Assembly: GCA_905480335.1 (NCBI GenBank)
Contig: CAJQPY010000040.1
Location: forward strand, 1 to 64,000
Reading direction: 5' to 3'
Length of the DNA: 64,000 nucleotides
Origin: an uncultured Ilumatobacter sp.
GTDB lineage: Bacteria > Actinomycetota > Acidimicrobiia > Acidimicrobiales > Ilumatobacteraceae
The position numbers and the translations under genes are program-made. The first letter of the stretch is position 1; every line of letters begins with the position of its first letter. Positions 17,651 to 39,821 of the stretch are shown here, one piece after another. The notes under the pieces are model-generated. The model was not told the origin of the DNA. It searched no databases and saw only the letters and a program-made list of their open reading frames with translations.

Positions 17651-17695
17651 TCCTGACAGCTGAGTTGCTCACTCGAGCGACTTCGTGAACACCAG

Positions 17696-17726
17696 AGCGG
17701 CCCCCGGACGATGTCTGGGGGCCGCT
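17696..17726. terminator. GC-rich hairpin after the binding-protein remnant
   Basis: Perfect 10-bp inverted repeat AGCGGCCCCC (17696-17705) with 17717-17726 and an 11-nt loop. It lies 46 bp after the last stop of the remnant and 73 bp before the SDR start. No T-run follows, as is common for terminators in high-GC genomes. Confidence 0.55.
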
Positions 17727-17798
17727 CCGCATTCCGACTCTCGTCGCAGCCGGGCATCGCGCTATCGTCCCGACGACACACGGATTCAGGGGGTATTC

Positions 17799-18578
17799 AT
17801 GGGCACACTTGATGGGCGCGTCGCCTGCATTACCGGCGGGACCAGAGGCATTGGTCTCGGTATCGCCAAGGGCTTTCTCGAAGAGGGAGCGAAAGTCGCG
17901 ATCAATGGTCGCGATCGGAGCAAGGCGGAGCGAACGCTTGCCGAGCTCGGTGCCGGCGACAACGCCTTCTACATTGCCGGTGACGTGAAGCAACGCAAGT
18001 CGTGCGAAGCGATCGTCGACACCACCGTCGACCATTTCGGGCGGATCGACATCTTGGTTGCTAATGCCGGTGGCGCATCTGGCCACGCGCCGATTGCCGA
18101 GCTCACTGACGAGGCCATGCAGGACTCGCTCGTGTGGAACTTCTGGCACACGTTCTGGACTATGCGACGAGCCTTCCACTACATGATCCCTCAGGAATCG
18201 GGCCGAGTCATGGCGGTCAGCTCGCTTGAAGGCAAGGTCGGCAAGCCGGGCATCTCGATCTATGTCGCGGCGAAACACGCGATCAACGGTCTCGTGAAAT
18301 CGGCGTCCCACGAGGTCGGCACGCTCGGCATCACGGTCAATGCGCTGTGTCCGGGCGCTATCGAAACCGACATCATGATGGCTGAGGGTCCCCCGGCCGC
18401 AGAATCGATGGGTCTGGACTATGAGGGGTTGCTCGACATGTTCTCCTCTGAATCAGCGATCAAGAAGCTCAACGAGGTCGAGGACGTAGCTGCGGTCGCG
18501 ACGCTGCTGGCGTCCGACGCCGGCGCCGGGATCACCGGCTCACTCATTTCGATCGACGGCGGCACGGCTCCGTACTGA
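17799..18578 (+). CDS. SDR family oxidoreductase (tandem copy 1)
   Basis: A 259-residue classical SDR with TGGTRGIG (12-19), NAGG (89-92), Ser141/Ser142 and catalytic Tyr155 and Lys159 in YVAAK. CAGGGGG precedes the ATG. An in-frame ATG at 17685 would add a Pro/Arg-rich stretch unlike the family and lacks a site. The next gene is a close paralogue in the same layout (MG.LDG.VACITGGTR, HYMIPQESGR, SSLEGK.GKPGI), so the pair arose by tandem duplication. Substrate unknown. Confidence 0.92.
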   Translation: MGTLDGRVACITGGTRGIGLGIAKGFLEEGAKVAINGRDRSKAERTLAELGAGDNAFYIAGDVKQRKSCEAIVDTTVDHFGRIDILVANAGGASGHAPIAELTDEAMQDSLVWNFWHTFWTMRRAFHYMIPQESGRVMAVSSLEGKVGKPGISIYVAAKHAINGLVKSASHEVGTLGITVNALCPGAIETDIMMAEGPPAAESMGLDYEGLLDMFSSESAIKKLNEVEDVAAVATLLASDAGAGITGSLISIDGGTAPY

Positions 18579-18605
18579 GCCGGAAACAGGGAACGGAGAA
18601 TCATC

Positions 18606-19388
18606 ATGGGAAAGCTCGACGGAAAGGTCGCCTGTATCACGGGCGGCACCCGCAGCATCGGCCGCGCAATGGCCGATGCATTCATTGCCGAAGGTGGCAA
18701 AGTTGTCGTCAACGGACGTGACGAAGTTAAGGGGCAGCAGTGTCTTGACGAGATGGGCGCCGGAGACAACTCAGCGTTTTACGCCGGCGATGCATCGAAG
18801 CAGGAGGCGGTCGAAGGGTTGATCGATTTCACGATCGAGCGCTACGGCCAACTCGACATCTGCTGCCTCAACTCCGGTGGCGTGCAGATGACCGCACCGG
18901 TTGCCCAGATGACCGACGAGGAATGGAACCTTGAAGTCGACTGGAACCTGAACCACGTGTTCTGGGGCATGCGCCGTGCGCTGCAGCACATGATTCCGCG
19001 TGAGTCGGGTCGCATCATCGTCACGTCGTCGGTTGAGGGCAAGCTCGGCAAGCCGGGTATCCCTGGTTACGCCGCCACGAAGCACGCAGTCAACGGTCTT
19101 GTCAAAGCCGCTGCGCATGAGGTCGGCACGATGGGGATCACGGTCAACGCGATTCTTCCCGGTCTCATTGAGACCGACATCGTTCGGGCGACCGGTCCGG
19201 ATTCGGCGGTCGCCATGGGGATGAGCGGCTACGACGAGCTGATCGAGACCTTCAGCTCGGAGTCGGCGATCAAGCGACCGAACAAGGTCGAAGAAGTCGC
19301 TGCCGTTGCCGTATTGATGGCGTCGGATGCGGCCAAGAACATGACGGCATGCATGTTCCCTGTCGACGGCGGGACGATGCCATACTGA
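18606..19388 (+). CDS. SDR family oxidoreductase (tandem copy 2)
   Basis: A 260-residue paralogue of the gene 27 bp upstream. The cofactor loop reads TGGTRSIG, with Ser for the usual Gly at its sixth position, and the NAG motif reads NSGG (89-92). Ser141/Ser142, Tyr155 and Lys159 are kept. These changes suggest a shift in cofactor or substrate after duplication. GGAGAATC precedes the ATG. The two probably share a transcript and may act on successive or related hydroxyl groups. Confidence 0.92.
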   Translation: MGKLDGKVACITGGTRSIGRAMADAFIAEGGKVVVNGRDEVKGQQCLDEMGAGDNSAFYAGDASKQEAVEGLIDFTIERYGQLDICCLNSGGVQMTAPVAQMTDEEWNLEVDWNLNHVFWGMRRALQHMIPRESGRIIVTSSVEGKLGKPGIPGYAATKHAVNGLVKAAAHEVGTMGITVNAILPGLIETDIVRATGPDSAVAMGMSGYDELIETFSSESAIKRPNKVEEVAAVAVLMASDAAKNMTACMFPVDGGTMPY

Positions 19389-37108: not shown

Positions 37109-37612
37109 TTAGTCGGTGGCTGGTTCACGACTCCAATTCACATCGAAATCGCGCTCGATGTCGAGCACCTGATACGCACGCCCGAGACCTACACAGAATC
37201 CGACGGTCACGGTGAGTTCGAGAATTTCGACTTCGGTGAACAGGTCCTTGAGCTGCGCCCACATTTTGTCGTCAATTGCAGTGTGATCGATTGCGAACTG
37301 CTCTGCGAACGCCGCCGCTAGCTTCTCGCGGTCGGTGAACTTGGAGTTGCTGCGAAAGTCCTCAATGTCGTGGTACAGCTCTTCGGTCAGTCCTTGCTGC
37401 ATCGCCGATGCAGCGCGCGTGTTCAGTCAAACGTGACACTCGTTGAGTTGGGCTATGCGCATGCGTGCGACCTCGCGTTCACGAACGCTGATGCTCGTCT
37501 TGGTGTAGACGGCTTCGCCCATCACCCCCATGGCCTTGCCGAGCTCTGGGGCAAGACTCCAGATGCGTTTAGCCTCCATGCCCTCGCCTTTGGGAACATT
37601 AATCTTCGCCAT
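37109..37612 (-). CDS. Carboxymuconolactone decarboxylase/AhpD-family protein, candidate CxxU selenoprotein
   Basis: Read through an in-frame TGA at 37427-37429, the gene gives a 167-residue protein. The first part is MAKINVPKGEG... ending REREVARMRIAQLNECHV; the frame continues LNTRAASAMQQGLTEEL and on to a normal stop at 37109. AhpD-like proteins have a redox CxxC after RIAQLNxC. Here Cys59 is followed two residues later by TGA as codon 62, giving C-H-V-U. The ATG has GAGGAG upstream. A hairpin begins 12 nt after the TGA. AhpD-like selenoproteins with CxxU are known from marine metagenomes (recalled). Selenocysteine is the best reading; a Cys-to-stop mutation is the alternative. No selA, selB or tRNA-Sec gene lies in the window. 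It is downstream of the molybdopterin gene. Confidence 0.75.
37396..37414 (-). promoter_or_regulatory. Candidate bacterial SECIS hairpin
   Basis: On the minus strand GCTGCATC (37414-37407), loop GGC (37406-37404) and GATGCAGC (37403-37396) form a perfect 8-bp stem. It begins 12 nt after the in-frame TGA, with the loop's first G after 20 nt. A short stem with G at the start of the apical loop, about 16-37 nt after UGA, is the recalled bacterial SECIS pattern. The element lies within codons of the CMD gene. Confidence 0.65.
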
Positions 37613-37661
37613 CAGAATCTCCTCAGCTTTGGGTGATGATCGGGATTGTCTTTAGAAGTTG

Positions 37662-39821
37662 TCACGCGACCGCTTCACTTGCCTTCGCGACTGCGACCGG
37701 AATGGCGCTTGACACGACCATGCCGGTTACCGGATCGGAGCCGATATCGGTTGACACGAGGCGGCTCGTTGGCGAGCCGATCTCGCGGACTTTTTCGTCG
37801 GTGAGCGAACGGCCGCCCCATGAGTGCGCCATCGAGATGACACCGTGTTTAACGTCGTCGGCTGCCTCGACGACACCGAGTAGGGACGCCTGAGGGGAGC
37901 TGATCTCAATTACGTCACCTGACTCGAGGCCTAGTTTGGCGACGTCGTCAGGGTGCATGTACGCCGAATTAGTCGTGCCCTTCCGAGCGAGGCCCGGGAG
38001 TTCGGTACCGGTCGAGTTGAGTACGTGCTTCAGTCGCCGGCTGACCAGGCGGAACGGGTAGTCGGACACGTCGTTTCCGGCGAAGGTGTCGGCGGTCTCG
38101 GCGAGCACCTCGGCTAGTTCGGCGACGAAGTCGTCGGGGGCCGGCGCGAACTTTGCGGTGGCATTCTCGTCAGCGGGATCGACCACCAGCTTCTTGTCCA
38201 TGTGCACGGTCCGCAGATTTGCCCGCACCTCGTCGAGCGGCATCCGGGAGCCGTGGTACGAACGATCAATGATCTCGTCGGTGTCGGGACGCACGGTCAT
38301 GTCCGGCGAACCACCCGGCAAAGGGAGGGTGCTGCCCAGGCGGGCCGCAAGTTCCCAGAAGACTTCCCACTCATTCAGCACATCACCGTCACGCTCGACG
38401 ACTGCCCCGGTGTAGTTGGTGTACGGCGCGCGGAACCAGCGGTCCATGAGGTGTGGGACATCGGCGCGTTCAAGCGGCAAGGTCGGAGCGATCACGTAGT
38501 TGGCCAATTCAGCCGTTGCGGTCATCCGGTAGTCAACGACGACGAGGAGTTCGAGATCCTCCATCGCCTCCATAGTGAGTTCGTGGTTGGGAAATGCCAC
38601 GACCGGGTTGCCGCCGCTGACGATCAACGCCCTGATACGGCCGTCACCGGGAGTGAGAATCTCCTCGGCCAGGGTGGCTGCAGGCATCTCTCCGCGATAC
38701 CCGCGGAGGTTGCGGATGCGCGCTTCGGGGCCGTTCGTCGGGTTGCGGGGGGCGGTGGCCTGGGCCCGGTGGGGCATCTCGGGATAGAGCAGGAGGCCGT
38801 TCTCCATGAGGTCGCCCTCACGATTGACCCGTCCGAGAATTGTGTTGAGGACCGCAGTCATGTGCTCGGTGAGGCTTGAATGCGCGGCCATGTTCGGGCC
38901 GGTTCCCGTTCCCGCCGTGCCGCGCCGTCCGTCCGCGAACATTCGCACGGCGGCGACGATGTCGTCAGGATCGAGTTGCGTGCGCTCAGCGACAAGGTCG
39001 AGAGTGAATCCCGAAACGGCGGCTTCGAGTTCGCCCATCTGGTCCACCCAGCGGTCGCAGAACTCGTGGTCTTGCATGCTCTCGTCGAGAACGATCTTGA
39101 TCATCCCGGCGAGCAGTGTGGTGTCCTGGCCGGGGCGGATCTGAAGGTGGATGTCGGCGAAGCTTGCCAGCTCGGTGCGACGCGGATCGATGACAATCAG
39201 CTTCATGCCTTCGGCCTTGCGACGGCGCATCACCGTGAACGGATTGGTGCCTTGCAGGCCACCGATTGGAGCGTACGACGAGACCATCGAGTTGTATCCG
39301 ATCGCCATATGGACGTCGGAGTCGGTAAACGAGTGGTATCCGGCTTCCCAGCCGCCAAGGCGAAGCATTGCCAGGCCCTTTGCCGGCTGGTCAATCGTGA
39401 CCGAGGTGTAGAACGACACCGAGTCGAGGCCCTGATGGAACGAGCGGGCCGCAGGCACCGCTACTGAGTTCTGGTAACCACCAGTGCCCGTGTAAGAGGC
39501 GACCGCACGCGGCCCGTAGGCGTCGATGATCCGGCGAAGCTCGGCAGCGATCTCGTCGAGTGCATCGCCACTCGTTGTCTCTTCGAACGTGCCGTCCGGT
39601 CGGCGACGCAGCGGTTGACGGATCCGTTTCGGATCGGCCATCTGGTCGGGGATCTGACGTCCTTTGATGCAGGTGTATCCCTCGAACAGTGGGTCGTCCA
39701 TCACGCCACGGACAGCAACGACCTTTTTGTCCTCAATATCGACCTCCATCGGACAGCTTGCGTGACACACGCGACAGAACGTGTGCTCGGTGCGTACCCC
39801 GGCGGTGGTCTCGCTCGACAT
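37662..39821 (-). CDS. Molybdopterin-dependent oxidoreductase (DMSO reductase/formate dehydrogenase superfamily)
   Basis: A 719-residue catalytic subunit. The N-terminal [4Fe-4S] ligands are C16-x2-C19-x3-C23 and C51. Family segments for bis-MGD binding follow (GYNSMVSSYAP, VIDPRRTELASFADIHLQI, VSGGNPVVAFPNHEL). The C-terminal domain has the MGD-binding cap with HPDDVAKLGLESGDVIEI. No Tat signal is seen, so it is probably cytoplasmic. No electron-transfer subunit is adjacent. The Mo ligand could not be assigned and neither could the substrate. The next gene downstream on the same strand, 49 bp away, is the candidate selenoprotein. Confidence 0.9.
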   Translation of the reverse strand: MSSETTAGVRTEHTFCRVCHASCPMEVDIEDKKVVAVRGVMDDPLFEGYTCIKGRQIPDQMADPKRIRQPLRRRPDGTFEETTSGDALDEIAAELRRIIDAYGPRAVASYTGTGGYQNSVAVPAARSFHQGLDSVSFYTSVTIDQPAKGLAMLRLGGWEAGYHSFTDSDVHMAIGYNSMVSSYAPIGGLQGTNPFTVMRRRKAEGMKLIVIDPRRTELASFADIHLQIRPGQDTTLLAGMIKIVLDESMQDHEFCDRWVDQMGELEAAVSGFTLDLVAERTQLDPDDIVAAVRMFADGRRGTAGTGTGPNMAAHSSLTEHMTAVLNTILGRVNREGDLMENGLLLYPEMPHRAQATAPRNPTNGPEARIRNLRGYRGEMPAATLAEEILTPGDGRIRALIVSGGNPVVAFPNHELTMEAMEDLELLVVVDYRMTATAELANYVIAPTLPLERADVPHLMDRWFRAPYTNYTGAVVERDGDVLNEWEVFWELAARLGSTLPLPGGSPDMTVRPDTDEIIDRSYHGSRMPLDEVRANLRTVHMDKKLVVDPADENATAKFAPAPDDFVAELAEVLAETADTFAGNDVSDYPFRLVSRRLKHVLNSTGTELPGLARKGTTNSAYMHPDDVAKLGLESGDVIEISSPQASLLGVVEAADDVKHGVISMAHSWGGRSLTDEKVREIGSPTSRLVSTDIGSDPVTGMVVSSAIPVAVAKASEAVA

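Follow-up and report, generated by a model that had tools for sequence, protein, structure and literature searches.

An In-Frame UGA Very Probably Read as Selenocysteine in a CMD/AhpD-Like Gene of Ilumatobacter

Introduction

AhpD- and CMD-like selenoproteins with a CxxU motif have appeared in lists drawn from metagenome reads since 2005 (PMC1088965). According to the descriptions published with two such sets, the Sargasso Sea data held 4 CMD and 27 AhpD-like selenoprotein sequences (PMC1088965), and the GOS data held 70 sequences of AhpD-like 2 (pfam02627) and 299 of AhpD-like 1 (COG2128) (PMC2398784). A prokaryotic selenoprotein catalogue of 2026 describes CMD-like (PF02627) and AhpD-like (TIGR01926) proteins, both with CxxU; the same review describes the clustered AhpD-like and Prx-like selenoproteins as still without a known function, and states that such genes are often truncated or missed by automatic annotation (PMC13188914). 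The CMD family also includes AhpD of Mycobacterium tuberculosis and PA0269 of Pseudomonas aeruginosa, and for AhpD a relay of Glu118, Cys130, His132, Cys133 and His137 has been described (PMC3141380).

Here, a gene of this kind is described from a 64,000-nt stretch of DNA of an uncultured Ilumatobacter sp. (hereafter the window). It resembles the Sargasso Sea and GOS selenoproteins in its domain (pfam02627 or COG2128), its CxxU motif and the hairpin behind the UGA (PMC1088965, PMC2398784); those sets consist of metagenome reads, and the likeness is one of domain, motif and hairpin descriptions. It likewise shares Pfam domain and motif with the CMD-like proteins of the 2026 catalogue, as these are described there (PMC13188914). 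The kind of protein is therefore already in print (PMC1088965, PMC2398784, PMC13188914), and it is the subfamily that is new as far as these sources go. The terms Ilumatobacter, Actinobacteri* and Actinomycet* do not occur in the main text of PMC13188914, and a search for published work on selenoproteins of Acidimicrobi* or Ilumatobacter, whose coverage took in few subscription papers, returned none on this subfamily. What is added is the placement of a CMD CxxU subfamily in whole genomes of Acidimicrobiia, with a conserved position behind a molybdopterin oxidoreductase gene and with Arg in place of the relay His of AhpD. Because whole genomes, a conserved neighbour and natural exchanges of selenocysteine (Sec) and Cys with selA retained are at hand, both the function of the protein and the benefit of Sec become testable.

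Gene Structure and Domain Assignment

The gene occupies 37109..37612 on the minus strand, from a start ATG at 37612-37610 to a final TAA at 37111-37109. It begins with ATG and comprises 61 sense codons, a TGA, 105 sense codons and the TAA, 168 codons in all, and would encode 167 residues with the TGA at codon 62 (37427..37429) read as Sec. A ribosome binding site, GAGGAG, was recognised by eye 6 nt 5′ of the ATG (37619..37624, minus strand). The residues around the TGA are Cys59-His-Val-TGA62 (CHV-TGA-LNTR); Cys59 (codon 37436..37438), the first residue of CxxU, is found in 18 of 18 rows of an alignment of relatives (A1), in which the frame and the invariant residues behind the TGA are also kept. 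An earlier note made from the letters of the window had described a frame broken only by this TGA, the GAGGAG site and family similarity on both sides of the interruption. All three are borne out by the sequence, and the strand, which the note had left out, is the minus strand.

With regard to the family, the Pfam CMD domain (PF02627) matches residues 22-104, across the TGA, with 37.6 bits against a curated cut-off of 23, which places the read-through protein in the PF02627 superfamily. Eight NCBIfam models match it at E ≤ 1, none of them at its own cut-off. The best is NF053654, YciW-related (seleno)protein, with 52.6 bits over residues 26-138, far under the cut-off of 310, so the protein is not a member of that family; similarly, TIGR01926 (peroxidase-related enzyme), the model of the AhpD-like selenoproteins in the 2026 catalogue, scores 29.1 bits, its cut-off being 81.8. 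In the genome there are two CMD matches at E ≤ 0.001, and only the gene at 37109..37612 contains a TGA.

A scan of the 64-kb window for in-frame TGA codons returned many chance frames, and nine ORFs were checked by Pfam. One frame, 17664-19388 on the plus strand, looked like a read-through candidate but was rejected: at 17685-19388 it holds two genes side by side in one frame, with a TGA and 27 nt between them, and each has a full SDR domain.

Selenocysteine Machinery in the Genome

The genome to which the window belongs (2.95 Mb in 51 contigs, 94% complete) contains the complete set of genes for Sec synthesis and insertion. selA (345 bits) is located on contig C6, and selB, which has the SelB winged-helix domain PF09107, overlaps its end. 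In addition, there are selD (366 bits) and a tRNA-Sec with anticodon UCA, the latter scoring 66.5 bits (gathering score 47). The earlier note had named the absence of selA, selB or selC as grounds to call the gene a plain pseudogene; all three are present, and this check did not refute the Sec reading.

The SelD gene itself carries an in-frame TGA, in the context GUGCK, which we take to be typical of selenoproteins. A further TGA was found in one of the six molybdopterin-domain matches of the genome, a formate-dehydrogenase-like protein (L192, G000:C3:44709-45998), where it stands in RTUHAPSV, presumably the formate dehydrogenase signature and likewise a typical selenoprotein context. Since both of these genes contain a TGA as well, the genome is likely to have at least three selenoprotein genes.

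Orthologues and Exchange between Sec and Cys

Relatives were sought at three levels: in 200 genomes from the family and, with the 18-row alignment, in 397 from the order and 396 from the phylum. Each set is a sample of a larger group, and DNA was fetched for part of the matches at each level. Besides that of the window's own genome, close orthologues occur in 26 of the 200 family genomes, with 55-76% identity to the protein. Codon 62 is TGA in 22 of these, as the sole stop within the match and down to 60% identity, and Cys in the other four. The gene is thus not decayed in these relatives, whose decay was the other ground for refutation given in the earlier note. The orthologue of Ilumatobacter nonamiensis YM16-303 (Acidimicrobiia, Ilumatobacteraceae), 76% identical, has TGA at codon 62, and the same species was the one relative found when genome contigs were scanned with the single protein as query. 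No relative was detected among the viral contigs searched; in a plasmid collection 63 records matched, all below 60% identity, the best among the matches listed being at about 33%.

The four Cys orthologues bear on another reading, according to which the locus encodes two short proteins, the first stopping at codon 61 and the second starting within the gene. An ORF of 97 residues does exist from an internal ATG at 37402. In the Cys forms, however, one continuous frame runs through this position, the CMD domain crosses the TGA, and the stretch from the TGA to the internal ATG is conserved in frame, so that two separate products are exceedingly improbable.

All four genomes with a Cys form have a SelA match, as do 21 of the 22 with a TGA orthologue; the match in G114 reaches no better than E 9.5e-4, and the TGA genome missing from the matches is G187, which is 76% complete. 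The correlation of the TGA form with SelA is a weak test and was discarded as evidence, as 151 of the 200 family genomes have a SelA match. Two sequence peculiarities were observed among the orthologues: the start is cut off by N in the TGA orthologue of G017, and the Cys orthologue of G176 has a frame change near its end.

For the wider comparison, 75-nt windows were obtained from 128 non-redundant hits, 79 with TGA and 45 with Cys, of which 74 and 45 are distinct. The tree was built from 126 rows, 81 with TGA and 45 with Cys, the fragment and L186 being left out. The motif search demands CxxU or CxxC, and hits other than one fragment have one or the other; L186 was missed by it despite a CSY-TGA motif. 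The window's clade comprises 32 rows, 28 with TGA and 4 with Cys, with a support of 100/99. Its Cys rows fall in two places, G022 on the one hand and G025, G043 and G176 on the other. Two exchanges of Sec for Cys within the clade are suggested by these placements, which are moderately supported in the tree (98/79 and 98/72). Within this clade UGA-62 goes together with the hairpin; the Cys forms lack both, with selA still present. On the whole tree, the TGA/Cys label needs nine changes, six of which are forced by well supported branches; counts of rows overstate the number of independent events, because the rows are related.

Several genomes hold more than one CMD paralogue with TGA on different branches of the tree: L022 and L165 in G050, L056 and L156 in G274, and L057, L154 and L155 in G430. 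It therefore seems that the CMD family radiated as selenoproteins in the order.

The SECIS Hairpin

The hairpin reads GCTGCATC-GGC-GATGCAGC and lies at 37414..37396 on the minus strand, starting 12 nt behind the TGA, with a perfect 8-bp stem and a GGC loop, exactly as the earlier note had described it. That note had also judged it unlikely that a random nonsense mutation would strike this very codon with such a hairpin behind it. The folding energy of the single sequence is unremarkable (z −0.75; 43 of 200 shuffles fold as well) and is uninformative on its own as proof of a SECIS element. Because the single hairpin is no more stable than its shuffles, the case for Sec rests on the machinery and on comparison, and it is in synonymous recodings and in the covariation among relatives that the hairpin stands out.

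All 8 pairs were retained in just 252 of 20,000 synonymous recodings of the hairpin stretch. The published bacterial SECIS (bSECIS) model, as far as its limits are given, allows a loop of 3-9 nt, a stem of 4-16 bp, an MFE of ≤ −7.5, and a G at loop position 1-2 at a distance of 16-37 nt from the UGA (PMC13188914). These limits were coded in a script and applied to TGA, Cys and recoded windows. The hairpin in the window falls within them (loop of 3 nt, stem of 8 bp, loop start 20 nt after the TGA, −11.2 kcal/mol), as do 65 of the 74 TGA windows, with nine outside; the corresponding figures are 4 of 45 for the Cys windows and 188 of 3,700 for the synonymous recodings.

Silent variation is also reduced at the hairpin. 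In 48 TGA rows (51 before the removal of near-copies), the normalised synonymous entropy averages 0.13 at the five degenerate hairpin codons (67-70 and 72), compared with a mean of 0.87 and a minimum of 0.56 at 40 other conserved codons; a rank test between the two groups gives p 1.6e-4 on rows that are not independent. Among the 74 distinct TGA windows there are 26 distinct hairpins. An alignment (A4) was made of the window and 25 of these, its own hairpin being one of the 25; the divergent TGA row L166, whose hairpin site fits 2 of the 8 pairs, was left out. In A4, 89.4% of the cells pair, and both sides have changed in some row for 7 of the 8 pairs. None of the five measures taken was reached by any of 500 shuffles, and pairing falls to 22-53% when the 3′ arm is shifted by 1 to 3 columns. 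At the same place, three Cys rows of the clade have GCAGCCTCTGCAATGGCAC, which retains 3 of the 8 pairs, and the remaining one has GCGCGAACAGCGGTCGATC, which retains 5. In 73 of the 74 TGA windows the loop opens with G, and the next base is G (57) or T (16), a loop-G rule like that of the published bSECIS model (PMC13188914).

These data also weigh on the possibility that the gene is a plain pseudogene, cut by a nonsense mutation at codon 62. The frame is indeed broken by the TGA and the single-sequence fold is not exceptional. Against this stand the same sole stop in 22 other genomes, the frame and invariant residues retained behind it, and a hairpin whose silent sites are nearly frozen and whose pairs covary, all of which leave the pseudogene a vanishingly small probability. 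The earlier note's reading of UGA as Sec is thus upheld by the Sec machinery, the conserved TGA and the covarying hairpin, and TGA-62 is almost certainly read as Sec, on comparative evidence.

The RNA stem constrains the protein sequence as well, since a switch between Gln and Arg at residue 72 tracks the pairing base at Ala67. In close orthologues with Arg72 (CGG), the partner codon Ala67 is GCC in seven, giving a C-G pair, and in those with Gln72 (CAG) it is GCT, giving U-A; G199 has the intermediate U-G pair (GCT...CGG). The locus is therefore an example of a SECIS stem limiting a protein sequence, as read from these orthologues.

A covariance model of the element, which includes the window's own hairpin, detects the site at E 1.2e-9 in the genome of the window, where the second-best match has an E of 1.9; in this run 150 of 2,730 first-look candidates were scored. 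In the window, the single site is the hairpin at TGA-62; other matches are weak, the best being one in L001, outside the window (18.2 bits, E 0.046). The model is family-specific, because it did not recognise the selD site when run on it.

Bases around the UGA

The base before the TGA (37430, minus strand, in the window) is A or T in 70 of the 74 TGA windows vs. none of the 45 Cys windows, counts that are inflated because the rows are related. Val61, present in 24 of 48 TGA rows, is encoded by GTT every time, and the codon before position 62 is GTG in the two Cys lineages of the clade and GTT in the close TGA orthologues. It is possible that this base forms a 5′ element of the Sec signal.

The base after the TGA is C or A in all 74 TGA windows, and likewise in 37 of the 45 Cys windows, with the same inflation by relatedness. 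UGA followed by C is a leaky stop context in bacteria, which could suit a reading of the UGA by a near-cognate tRNA (Trp, Arg or Cys); alternatively, TGA might be reassigned in this genome. Both are countered by codon 62 being Cys, without TGA, in four close orthologues, by the selection on the SECIS element, by the full Sec apparatus and by neighbouring genes that end in TGA (33647, 35744). Taken together, these two routes are highly improbable.

Active Site and Proposed Mechanism

The gene very likely encodes a genuine CMD/AhpD-like selenoprotein, including a redox role proposed for Sec62 and Cys59. The predicted structure is all-helical (mean pLDDT 83.3, pTM 0.79), and the top PDB sequence match is PA0269 of Pseudomonas aeruginosa (2o4d, E 1.9e-10). 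AhpD and PA0269, as described, share with the protein the Glu 12 residues before the first Cys and the CxxC spacing, with the second Cys replaced here by Sec62 (PMC3141380). They differ from it at His137 of AhpD (His55 of PA0269), which is Arg66 here, and at His132 (Tyr50), which is Val61 (PMC3141380).

At the offset of AhpD Glu118, Glu is present in every one of the 81 TGA and 45 Cys rows (Glu47 in the window, codon 37472..37474, minus strand). All 126 rows have Arg where AhpD has His137, and 76 of the 81 TGA rows have Val or Ile where it has His132. Such counts are uninformative on the two redox positions themselves, because CxxU or CxxC was demanded by the motif search. Of the five-residue proton relay of AhpD, then, the Glu and both redox positions are kept, with Arg at the position of His137. 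The label AhpD/CMD given in the earlier note accordingly stands for the family and less so for the mechanism: with Arg at the His137 position in all rows, a plain AhpD mechanism is not assured, and with Val or Ile at the His132 position as well, the protein is CMD/AhpD-like and not AhpD by its relay.

In the mechanism we propose, SelB would bind the hairpin, whose loop begins 20 nt after the UGA, and deliver Sec-tRNA(UCA), as expected from SelB biology, and decoding of UGA-62 as Sec would create the redox pair Cys59-His-Val-Sec62, with Glu47 twelve residues earlier. By analogy with family chemistry, the selenol of Sec62 may attack an oxidised substrate, either a hydroperoxide or a disulfide or oxidised cofactor. 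Cys59 would then resolve Sec62 as a selenenylsulfide, which a thiol reductant would reduce. Glu47 may take part in proton transfer, and Arg66 could possibly stabilise the selenolate. Redox chemistry at CxxU is likely; peroxide as the substrate is plausible and just short of what we would favour.

Gene Neighbourhood and Possible Role

A molybdopterin oxidoreductase gene (PF04879, PF00384, PF01568) lies 49 nt upstream of the CMD gene on the same strand (37662..39821, minus strand), and the two are probably on one transcript. Its product is a single chain that scores below the cut-off of every NCBIfam model (the best is TIGR01591, with 208.8 bits where 666 are required) and contains a VTIDQPAK stretch; by eye, there is no Cys or Sec at the site of TUHAP in the TGA-bearing molybdopterin protein of the genome.

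The neighbourhood was surveyed at 28 of the 32 loci of the clade, with longer flanks and including some short contigs. In 18 of the 28 loci a molybdopterin oxidoreductase gene precedes the CMD gene on the same strand at a distance of 13-49 nt, and in two more it lies 870 and 1,267 nt upstream; it was not seen at the other eight surveyed, in G024, G051, G149 and the f16, f27 and f42 genomes. The Cys forms G022, G025 and G043 also have this upstream gene. The fetched flanks also hold members of protein clusters with P450 (15 of 28), LivH/LivM-like permease (16), ABC transporter ATPase (22, named by eye) and F420 luciferase-type oxidoreductase (8), and the gene cluster looks catabolic.

Given the nearby genes for molybdopterin, P450 and F420/luciferase-type oxidoreductases and for a branched-chain-type ABC transporter, the most likely role of the protein is to maintain the redox state or to remove peroxide within a pathway of oxidative catabolism. 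As a guess, the protein might reduce a peroxide or an oxidised partner in the service of the pathway of the molybdopterin enzyme. The catabolic appearance of the neighbourhood, together with Arg in place of the AhpD His in all 126 rows, would also suit a selenoprotein with isomerase- or decarboxylase-like chemistry on a pathway intermediate, in which Sec acts as a nucleophile and the protein is neither a peroxidase nor a thiol redox enzyme. This is unlikely in view of the CxxU or CxxC motif in every hit but the fragment and of the relay Glu in all 126 rows, as expected for redox use.

A broader and rather tentative picture may be drawn, namely an Acidimicrobiales-wide radiation of CMD selenoproteins, with the member in the window outside all NCBIfam models, in which this clade would act as a dedicated selenol redox partner of the molybdopterin oxidoreductase within an operon for oxidative catabolism. 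Its relay would be based on Arg instead of His, and A/U before the UGA would be a second element of the Sec signal in this family.

A limonene-1,2-epoxide-hydrolase-like gene (PF07858) was also observed behind the CMD gene in 13 of the 28 loci (e.g., L110:5509-5880); it is absent in the window and in all four loci surveyed for its genus, and it accompanies the Cys form G022.
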